Under the pieces are notes generated by a model. It had not been told where the DNA came from. It saw only the letters and a program-made list of their open reading frames with translations, and searched no databases. Shown piece after piece: positions 38,176 through 41,148 of a stretch of 63,234 nucleotides of DNA. The stretch's first letter is position 1; each line of letters opens with the position of its first letter. The position numbers were made by a program, and so were the translations under genes. Source of the DNA: Verrucomicrobiota bacterium (GTDB lineage: Bacteria > Verrucomicrobiota > Verrucomicrobiia > Opitutales > Puniceicoccaceae); the NCBI GenBank assembly GCA_038744685.1, contig JBCDMB010000018.1, positions 1 through 63,234 of the forward strand, in the 5' to 3' direction.

Positions 38176-38685
38176 ATGCTTATCGTTGCTGCTGTTTGGG
38201 GGATCTCGGGGGTCCTTGCGATCTTGGGTTTTGCGATTTACCGGCTGTTTCCGATTGCAATGGATTCTTTCGAAGGGAGCAACTTTGGCCTACTAGAGTG
38301 GTCGGTGCTGGCTGTCTGGGTGGCTTTCATGATTTACGCTGAAGGGGTCAGGGGGTTTCACTTTGCCTTTTCGCCTCGGGTTGTAGCCAGGGCTCGGGCA
38401 CTGCTCACCCACCCAGACTTGCCATCATCCCTCCTGGCACCGTTCTACTGTTTCGGTTTTTTTCGGGCGACACGCAAAAGAAAGATCGTTTCGTGGTCTG
38501 TTGCCCTTGGAGTCATCGGGCTTGTGCTAGTCGTTCAACTACTTGAACAACCATGGAGAGGAATCATTGACTGGGGAGTGGTTGCCGGCCTGGGAATCGG
38601 AATGGCCTCTATTCTCTTTTACTCCATTTGCTGGATCATTGGAAAGCCGATCGATTTCCCTACGGACTTGCCGGATTCTGACTAG
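38176..38685 (+). CDS. Small multi-pass membrane protein, unknown function
   Basis: A 169-residue protein with four predicted helices (about 5-27, 43-60, 105-122 and 133-155). The loop CFGFFRATRKRKIVSWSVAL and the later LLEQPWRGIIDWGVVAGLG look like conserved family signatures, but I cannot name the family. It is 108 bases downstream of the binding protein. It is not an ABC permease: it lacks the EAA loop and is too short. Its TAG stop shares the palindromic CTAG at 38682-38685 with the stop of the convergent exonuclease gene. Confidence 0.75.
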   Translation: MLIVAAVWGISGVLAILGFAIYRLFPIAMDSFEGSNFGLLEWSVLAVWVAFMIYAEGVRGFHFAFSPRVVARARALLTHPDLPSSLLAPFYCFGFFRATRKRKIVSWSVALGVIGLVLVVQLLEQPWRGIIDWGVVAGLGIGMASILFYSICWIIGKPIDFPTDLPDSD

Positions 38686-39704
38686 TCTTCCTCGGCTTCG
38701 TCTCTATCTCTCAAACTCCCGACCTCGATTGATCGGATACCAGTCTCGTTTAGATACTGGGTCACAACGCTCGTGAAACCGTGCATCGTGCCCACAAACT
38801 CTGCGCCGGTTTCGTAAATGGTCTGGTGTAGCTGGTTCCAATCGACGTGATCTGAGAGAACAAAGCCCCGGTCGAGGGCTTGGCGTCGGCGGCTTCCCCG
38901 GATCTGCATCCAGCCAGAGGCAAAGGCGAGAGACATAGGGGAAAACTTTCTCAGCCATGGGCTTCCGGCGGTGGATCCGGGAGCTATAATGAGGCCGCGC
39001 CCGGTGAATTCGGAGCGATTCTCCGGGGTCACCTTACTATGTTCGGCTAGGGAAATACCCGCAGCTTTGTAATGGGGGTCAAACTTCTCGATACTGCCGT
39101 GGACTCCGATAGGACCTATGGAATCATCGAGGACGGCTAGAATTCTCTGCGCTTTTCCCAGAGCGTAGGCGAAAAGGACGGAGGTGATACCCTGCTCTTG
39201 GTTTTTCCTCCACCAATTATGAATCTCGTATTGGACTGACTCGACCGTAGGCCAGCTATATACAGGTAGTCCGAAGGTACACTCTGTGAAAAATGAATTG
39301 CAGGAAACGATCTCGAATGGATCGCATGAGGAGTCGGGCTGTCGTTTGTAGTCGCCGGTTACGACGCAGGTATATCCTTGCCTCTCAATTCGGACTTGCG
39401 AAGCACCTAGAAGATGACCGGAGGGGTGGAGGGACAAGGTAACCCCATTGATTTGCAACTGCTCTCCGTAGCCGAGGGTTTGAAAGGAGGGTGACCCATA
39501 TCCTACCCGTTCCTTTAAGACCCCAAGGCCTCGCTGCGACGTCAGATAGTGTTTGCTTCCCGGCCTTGCGTGGTCGCTGTGCGCATGAGTAATGATGGCA
39601 CGATCAACCGGGATGCGGGGATCGATGAAAAACTTTCCTTCGGGACAGTAGACACCCTCCCTTTCAATGGTGAGGACACCTGCTGGATCGAGGGCTTGGC
39701 TCAG
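38682..39704 (-). CDS. MBL/beta-CASP exonuclease (ligase-associated, Pso2/SNM1-like), non-canonical start
   Basis: A metallo-beta-lactamase-fold nuclease of the ligase-associated exonuclease group. The metal motif THAHSDH lies at residues 39-45 and the beta-CASP part includes GDYKRQPDSSCDPFEIV and TECTFGLPVY. The family normally begins about 15 residues before the YCPxG motif, seen here as YCPEGKFFIDP. An upstream in-frame TAG (39714-39716) limits the start to the region after it, where no ATG, GTG or TTG exists before codon 83. The CTG at 39704, which overlaps the TGA of the barrel gene (CTGA), gives 340 residues; ATT at 39668 is the alternative. A TTG at 39458 would delete the catalytic motif. 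No ligase or Lhr helicase gene lies nearby. Confidence 0.85.
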   Translation of the reverse strand: MSQALDPAGVLTIEREGVYCPEGKFFIDPRIPVDRAIITHAHSDHARPGSKHYLTSQRGLGVLKERVGYGSPSFQTLGYGEQLQINGVTLSLHPSGHLLGASQVRIERQGYTCVVTGDYKRQPDSSCDPFEIVSCNSFFTECTFGLPVYSWPTVESVQYEIHNWWRKNQEQGITSVLFAYALGKAQRILAVLDDSIGPIGVHGSIEKFDPHYKAAGISLAEHSKVTPENRSEFTGRGLIIAPGSTAGSPWLRKFSPMSLAFASGWMQIRGSRRRQALDRGFVLSDHVDWNQLHQTIYETGAEFVGTMHGFTSVVTQYLNETGIRSIEVGSLRDRDEAEED

Positions 39705-40375
39705 AAAGAGAGACTAGCAGAGAGTTCCAGAGACTGGAACTGGTAGTCATCGACTCCGACGTTTCGCCCAAACAGAGTGAAGTTGGAATCTTCCACCACC
39801 GTGTAGCGGTAAGCGAAGTCGAAGCGAATGTTACTGAGTGGCTGGTATGAGATGCCAGTCAGGAACTGGTAAGTGAACAACCACTTATCATTCTCATCAG
39901 TTACGGTACCTAAAGGACCGGTTACAGTTGCCTTTTGGTTTAAGTTTGTTGCCCCTAGACCACCACCAAAGTAAAGACCCCAGTTGGTTTCCAAACTGTC
40001 TAGGATGTCGTAGTATACGTTTCCAAGAAAGGTGTAGTTGTCGGCGTCGATTTTCGAATTGTAGAGACCTGTTCCCAGGTTTGAACCCGTGATGGCTGCG
40101 GCCTGGGCTCCAGTTGCCTGGGTCGAAATCTGTGAGTCGGGCATGTAGTATTGAAATTCGAATTCGAAATACCAGCCGTTGCTGGGCACCTTGTATCCTA
40201 CATTTGCGATACCTCCGAAACCGTCTTCCGGGTCGAGGTTTCCGTTCCCAAGGAGGTTAGTGATGGAATTGTCTGCTTCCGGGAAGAAGTAGGCAAGACC
40301 TGCTCCGAAGTAGAGTTGTCCGAAAGCTGTTGAGCCTGAGGCGAGGGTAAGGGTAAGAAGGAGGGCTTTTTTCAT
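39701..40375 (-). CDS. Outer membrane beta-barrel protein
   Basis: A 224-residue protein with a signal peptide (MKKALLLTLTLASGSTAFG, cut before QLYFG) and alternating hydrophobic/polar strands ending in aromatic residues, the pattern of an eight-stranded OmpA/OMP_b-brl barrel. Examples are LYFGAGLAYFFP, WYFEFEFQYYMPD, NWGLYFGGGLGA and RFDFAYRYTVVED. The last strand ends LSASLSF with terminal Phe, the outer membrane insertion signal. Its stop codon overlaps the proposed CTG start of the exonuclease gene downstream. Role structural or porin-like, not defined by sequence. Confidence 0.9.
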   Translation of the reverse strand: MKKALLLTLTLASGSTAFGQLYFGAGLAYFFPEADNSITNLLGNGNLDPEDGFGGIANVGYKVPSNGWYFEFEFQYYMPDSQISTQATGAQAAAITGSNLGTGLYNSKIDADNYTFLGNVYYDILDSLETNWGLYFGGGLGATNLNQKATVTGPLGTVTDENDKWLFTYQFLTGISYQPLSNIRFDFAYRYTVVEDSNFTLFGRNVGVDDYQFQSLELSASLSF

Positions 40376-40533
40376 AGTAGGTAAGGGATCCGAGAGTGTG
40401 AGGCTGGGAAACGGTTGTCAAACAGCTTTAGGCCTCTTGGTTTATGATCCTTTTCAGAAAATCGTGTGGATCGGTGAGACATAATTTGGCTTTGCAGTTG
40501 CAAGCATTCGGTCGCTTTGTTTCTAGTCGGAGG

Positions 40534-41148
40534 ATGGTCGATGATCCGGGACAGTTTTCAAATGAAGAAGCGTTCCGCATTTTAATCCTCAATCGGGTTT
40601 GGCAACCGGTGAACATCGTCGGAGTCCGAAGGGCGGTGTCTCTTTTGTTTCAGGACAACGCTCAAGTGATTCATCCGAACGAAGGCAACTACGAGTTGTT
40701 ATCTGCCTCGGACTGGATCGAACGGTCTACAACTCACCCACCTGAAGAAGGGGAACTCTGCGTGAGGTCGGTTCGTCTCCGCCTTCGCCTACCGCAGATT
40801 TTGCTTTTGAAGGAGTTTGATCGTGTGCCTGTGCAAGATACGAAACTGTGTAGGCGGAACATTTTCGAACGGGACAACTACCGCTGCCAATATTGTGGTG
40901 AAGTTTTTCCTGAGTCTAAGTTGAACTTGGACCACGTGATTCCGAGGGACAGGGGAGGTCGCACGAGCTGGGAGAATTTGGTAACTTCATGCATCGAGTG
41001 TAATAGCAAAAAGGCTAATCGTCTTCCCCATCAGGCTGGATTGGTGCTTCGGCGTCAGCCGATGCGTCCCAAGCATAGACCTTTCCTTTCAGTCCTACAC
41101 AGAAGCGGTTCGCGGGATGCCTGGAAGCCTTTCCTAGGTAAAGCCTGA
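40534..41148 (+). CDS. HNH endonuclease
   Basis: A 204-residue nuclease with the HNH core CRRNIFERDNYRCQYCGE, LDHVIPRDRGGRTSWENLV and CIECNSKKANR: two CxxC zinc pairs framing the DHV and the GG...N motif. The N-terminal half (ILILNRVWQPVNIVGVRRAV) is the usual partner domain of this family, found as a stand-alone nuclease in many bacteria. The start is uncertain: ATG 40534 directly abuts GGAGG, which is too close for a good ribosome site, while ATG 40444 would add 30 residues with no obvious homology. It is divergent from the barrel gene and precedes the ATP-grasp/alpha-E fusion by 43 bases. Confidence 0.87.
   Translation: MVDDPGQFSNEEAFRILILNRVWQPVNIVGVRRAVSLLFQDNAQVIHPNEGNYELLSASDWIERSTTHPPEEGELCVRSVRLRLRLPQILLLKEFDRVPVQDTKLCRRNIFERDNYRCQYCGEVFPESKLNLDHVIPRDRGGRTSWENLVTSCIECNSKKANRLPHQAGLVLRRQPMRPKHRPFLSVLHRSGSRDAWKPFLGKA

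Follow-up and report, generated by a model that had tools for sequence, protein, structure and literature searches.

Predicted near-cognate start codons in a ligase-associated DNA exonuclease gene and in its unlinked partner ligase in a member of the Puniceicoccaceae

Starts at CTG and ATT are known in bacteria but rare. In model bacteria, according to the account of Hecht 2017 given in PMC11983097, 20 of ~85,000 genes are annotated as starting at CTG, and CUG initiation is poor in E. coli, about tenfold below that at TTG. Moreover, CUG complexes are less stable than those on AUG, GUG and UUG (PMC11497404). A CTG start was proven by mutation in the rep gene of RepFIB, found in F-like plasmids, which is usually mis-annotated at a downstream canonical codon and whose weak expression is thought to be useful (PMC11983097). 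In E. coli, infC and pcnB are known to start at ATT (PMC9410913). No geometry is commoner among serial gene pairs than the four-base overlap, as in ATGA and GTGA, which supports termination-reinitiation (PMC10666635). Here, we describe a gene of the TIGR04122 family, the exonucleases of the Lhr-Core/MPE/Exo/Lig repair cluster, in which a predicted CTG start coincides with such an overlap and whose partner ligase is predicted to start at ATT.

The window (the whole stretch of DNA analysed, 63,234 nucleotides) carries on its reverse strand an open frame of 343 codons (38685-39713) closed by a TAG at 38682-38684. It matches TIGR04122 from residue 14 of the open frame with 418.8 bits (E 1.1e-125), above the curated cut-off of 325 bits. 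The HxHxDH motif, the other conserved residues and the N-terminal YC..G motif of the family are all present, and H40, H42, D44 and H45 are invariant among the 43 sequences compared. An AF2 model built with 43 sequences for the 340-residue protein read from CTG (38682-39704) reached a mean pLDDT of 93.2 and a pTM of 0.90, with a fold like that of CPSF73, RNase J and TTHA0252. Thus, in sequence, length and invariant metal-binding motifs the enzyme resembles its family, and the partner ligase (TIGR04120) is also encoded in the genome. It differs in being unlinked from this ligase, adjacency being usual rather than strictly defining for TIGR04122, in the absence of detectable helicase and phosphoesterase genes, and in having no canonical start. 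From the sequence comparisons and the model, the gene probably encodes a functional ligase-associated DNA exonuclease translated from the CTG at 39704.

The preliminary description of this DNA had reported that the frame contains no ATG, GTG or TTG ahead of a TTG at 39458, and inspection of the bases bore this out at every coordinate. The in-frame TAG at 39714-39716 is followed by TCT CTC TTT CTG AGC CAA, and the first canonical codon is the TTG at 39456-39458, 82 residues after the CTG. The catalytic THAHSDH (39570-39590) and the YCPEG motif (39636-39650) both lie upstream of this TTG, so that a start called there would indeed cost 82 residues and the active site. Two near-cognate codons come into question: the CTG at 39702-39704, 18 codons before the Tyr of YCPEG, and an ATT at 39666-39668, 6 codons before it.

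To compare starts, we counted the codons between each canonical codon and the Tyr of the [YF]C motif in 116 homologues. Only the exonuclease studied here lacks a canonical start anywhere in the open frame before the motif; in three distant homologues (L066, L067 and L072) the only canonical candidates lie unusually far upstream. Among the 37 relatives from the same order, 29 are open at offset 18, and 14 of these 29, mostly from one family and thus not independent, have ATG, GTG or TTG exactly at the position of our CTG. This offset is the modal one in the order, other offsets being used by at most five relatives each. The exonuclease of G001, a genome of the same genus, has GTG at offset 18, while that of the closest relative, G003, has ATG at offset 23. 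In one of the distant homologues (L072, from a Gemmatimonadaceae MAG), the closest canonical start precedes the motif by 50 codons and a CTG precedes it by 10, possibly a second case of a CTG start. Another homologue (L005, G005 contig 4, 95958-96950) contains one TAA in the matched frame and may be a pseudogene or an assembly fault.

Upstream lies a gene for a small outer-membrane beta-barrel (39701-40375, reverse strand; 224 residues), with a signal-peptide-like N-terminus and a C-terminal Phe, whose orthologues in the same-genus genomes G002 and G001 are 73% and 70% identical. As previously noted, its TGA (39701-39703) shares bases with the exonuclease CTG in a CTGA (39701-39704). Downstream, a convergent gene for a membrane protein (38176-38685, forward strand; 169 residues, with orthologues of 65% identity in G001 and G002) ends in a TAG that shares the CTAG at 38682-38685 with the exonuclease stop. 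Given these two overlaps, the exonuclease gene has no non-coding base on either side. The CTAG common to the two stops is a palindrome.

Synteny is fixed by a divergent gene for an HNH endonuclease (40444-41148, forward strand), 80-84% identical to its counterpart next to the barrel in G002 and G001. The order HNH endonuclease, barrel, convergent protein of ~170 residues and solute-binding-like protein is the same in all three genus members. In G001 and G002, no exonuclease was found in the gap between barrel and convergent gene; there, the barrel gene ends in TTC TAA, after which comes a terminator hairpin with a T run (in G002, -19.9 kcal/mol, z -6.35). In the window, the exonuclease occupies precisely this gap, starting in the last codon of the barrel gene; no terminator-like site was found between the two genes, and RNA structure at their junction was at background level (z 0.01). 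The overlap with the upstream gene is therefore not conserved in the genus. A conserved pairing of barrel and exonuclease was likewise rejected, since no exonuclease follows the true orthologues of the barrel gene and the G003 exonuclease is preceded by a BamA-like barrel of another family. With three genomes to compare, insertion of the exonuclease with removal of the terminator seems a simpler origin than its loss in the ancestor of G001 and G002.

Outer-membrane barrels generally require a terminal Phe for assembly. Because the exonuclease begins in the last codon of the barrel gene, the C of its CTG is the third base of a conserved TTC; an ATG or GTG in the four-base overlap would convert the terminal Phe to Leu. 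Since TTC or TTT, for Phe, is expected as the last codon of the barrel gene, an overlap of this kind with TGA offers only CTG or TTG, and the presence of TTC in all three genus members accounts for CTG. The NTGA geometry is thus that of the ATGA and GTGA pairs (PMC10666635), except that N is here C, and the Phe codon upstream leaves only C or T open to it. RepFIB rep and the exonuclease, with its predicted CTG start, also differ: the plasmid gene works with a good ribosome-binding site, and an overlap with a Phe-ending upstream gene is not among the features described for it in PMC11983097.

The main new result, outside the scope of the preliminary description, is that the partner ligase lacks a canonical start as well. 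It lies on another contig of the same genome, G000 (contig 4, 170503-172089, reverse strand; L137), and matches TIGR04120 with 592.3 bits, above the cut-off of 400 bits. Its frame has no ATG, GTG or TTG before an internal TTG, and all 29 same-order relatives examined have one of these three codons at the position of an ATT at 172093-172095, which is the predicted start. The ligase would thus be, like infC and pcnB (PMC9410913), a chromosomal gene starting at ATT, whereas those two E. coli genes do not form an enzyme pair. By a hand count, 59 genomes of the order encode both exonuclease and ligase, with the two genes adjacent in 51; in G003, as in our genome, they lie on different contigs.

As a genome control, 496 ORFs from 743 kb (20% of the genome), a sample in which the window and the ligase stretch were deliberately placed, were scored by codon usage. 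The exonuclease had the strongest coding signal ahead of its first canonical codon (84 codons). Among the other ORFs high in the ranking, the ligase (23 codons) alone had no obvious ATG close by, the rest being judged by eye. The scan, which is blind to cases losing fewer than ~20 codons, revealed no further clear non-canonical start in the ~490 other ORFs sampled. Similarly, in 40 same-genus orthologue pairs (21 genes), homology ahead of the first canonical start never exceeded 7 codons. If the two starts are taken as independent, the absence of other cases in roughly 490 ORFs keeps the probability of a second rare start, in the partner of a gene that has one, below ~0.6% (rule of three). A genome-wide use of CTG starts was rejected on the 743 kb. 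The first strong candidates were either shadow frames opposite other genes, e.g., rpoC and EF-Tu, or frames whose true rival was cut off at the edge of a stretch. IF3, the presumed autoregulator of its own gene infC in E. coli, discriminates against near-cognate start codons. Lax initiation through loss of IF3 was rejected too, as infC is present and the genome encodes the factor.

In G000 and G001, no match to the helicase (TIGR04121) above its cut-off and no match at all to the phosphoesterase (TIGR04123) was found, and in G002 neither exonuclease nor ligase was found at the thresholds used. In the exonuclease tree, the enzyme of the window joins that of G003, which belongs to the same family (support 100/99), and the G001 enzyme falls in the clade of another family. 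The ligase tree likewise groups G000 with G003 (support 100/99), with the G001 ligase elsewhere. Both trees therefore indicate that the exonuclease-ligase pair of our genome is the family's own. From these trees, G001 probably holds a foreign exonuclease-ligase operon through horizontal replacement of the pair; it is located at 18168-20764 of contig 101 (L004, L136).

The ATT at 39668, which the preliminary description had allowed as a start, could be used in place of the CTG, with the AGGTG located 8 bases upstream as its ribosome-binding site. Rare ATT starts are known (infC, pcnB; PMC9410913), and one is predicted for the ligase of the same genome. On the other hand, the resulting product, at offset 6, would be shorter than that of any of the 116 homologues whose start is forced. 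Moreover, in the model read from CTG the first ten residues have a pLDDT of ~90 and strands span residues 12-14 and 17-20; as the ATT encodes residue 13, a start there would cut the first strand of a terminus predicted to be ordered from the CTG onwards. No Shine-Dalgarno motif was found before the CTG, but such motifs were rejected as arbiters between the two codons, since starts in this genome show no enrichment for them: cores occurred at 43 of 215 starts, picked by a rough rule, and at 44 of 215 control positions. The AGGTG thus weighs little. We consider initiation at the ATT quite improbable and strongly favour the CTG, a start that is backed by the position used among relatives, by the structure model and by synteny within the genus.

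The absence of canonical starts might also be an artefact or a sign of decay. The sequence comes from a single metagenome assembly, in which the true base at 39704 could be A, G or T, or an indel could join another ATG to the frame. Such an error would require a second, independent one at the ligase start. The stretch has no long homopolymer, both barrel orthologues end their last sense codon, TTC, with the same C, and A or G at this position would turn the terminal Phe of the barrel into Leu; we regard this explanation as very improbable. A decaying module, in which both genes have recently lost their starts and are silent or nearly so, would fit the disappearance of helicase and phosphoesterase from G000 and G001, the lack of exonuclease and ligase in G002 at the thresholds used, and the weakened starts of both surviving genes. 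Yet both frames are intact, over ~340 codons for the exonuclease and ~530 for the ligase, with no frameshift or internal stop. Of the columns in which the other 42 sequences never vary, not counting that of the start Met, the exonuclease preserves 52 of 53; the corresponding figure for the ligase is 108 of 109, equal to G003. Branch lengths compared with this sister are 0.53 vs 0.52 for the exonuclease and 0.47 vs 0.70 for the ligase. Given that the invariant residues are kept and that evolution is no faster than in the sister lineage, two sequencing errors or a long decay are unlikely. Moreover, G001, likewise devoid of helicase and phosphoesterase, has its exonuclease-ligase pair with normal starts, and hits on the start alone in both genes are unlikely, because a start codon is a small target compared with the many sites open to nonsense or frameshift mutations. 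Intact residues and branch lengths speak against long decay; a very recent loss of both starts would be compatible with them, but we judge start loss an unlikely explanation overall.

The exonuclease gene follows the barrel gene directly, with neither terminator nor spacer, and is therefore probably made from the barrel mRNA. This mRNA would carry both genes, and ribosomes finishing the barrel at its TGA would restart at the overlapping CTG, the likely outcome being that a potentially harmful nuclease is made at a low level, coupled to that of the barrel. The reading put forward earlier, of a CTG start that overlaps the barrel stop, has the start position of relatives, the model and synteny in its favour; reinitiation at this site is a step that we infer. 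The weakness of CUG in E. coli counts against a CTG start of the exonuclease. Taken together, a CTG start at 39704, reinitiation from the barrel and a low dose of exonuclease seem to us a likely joint explanation.

The ATT of the ligase is also a weak codon, and both halves of the pair would probably be made sparingly. Weak starts may be the way in which this cell keeps the exonuclease-ligase pair scarce. More tentatively, both genes might have shifted to near-cognate starts, so that translation of the exonuclease from CTG and of the unlinked ligase from ATT would be held low jointly, and be jointly sensitive to start-codon proofreading through the level of IF3. If so, joint near-cognate starts would represent a pathway-wide setting located at the start codon, and not at the promoter or the ribosome-binding site.

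What is new here is the predicted joint use of near-cognate starts, CTG and ATT, by two partner repair genes; together with the Phe codon of the barrel gene, which limits the choice of start, it lends the case an interest beyond that of a single CTG start. Gene callers limited to ATG, GTG and TTG would remove 82 residues and the active site from the exonuclease, and also the N-terminus of the ligase, whereas the real starts can be recovered by homology and position. The case shows how overlap with a gene for a Phe-ending membrane protein narrows the start-codon options. If functional, the paired rare starts would be a natural example, open to testing, of a whole repair pathway whose dose is controlled at the start codon.
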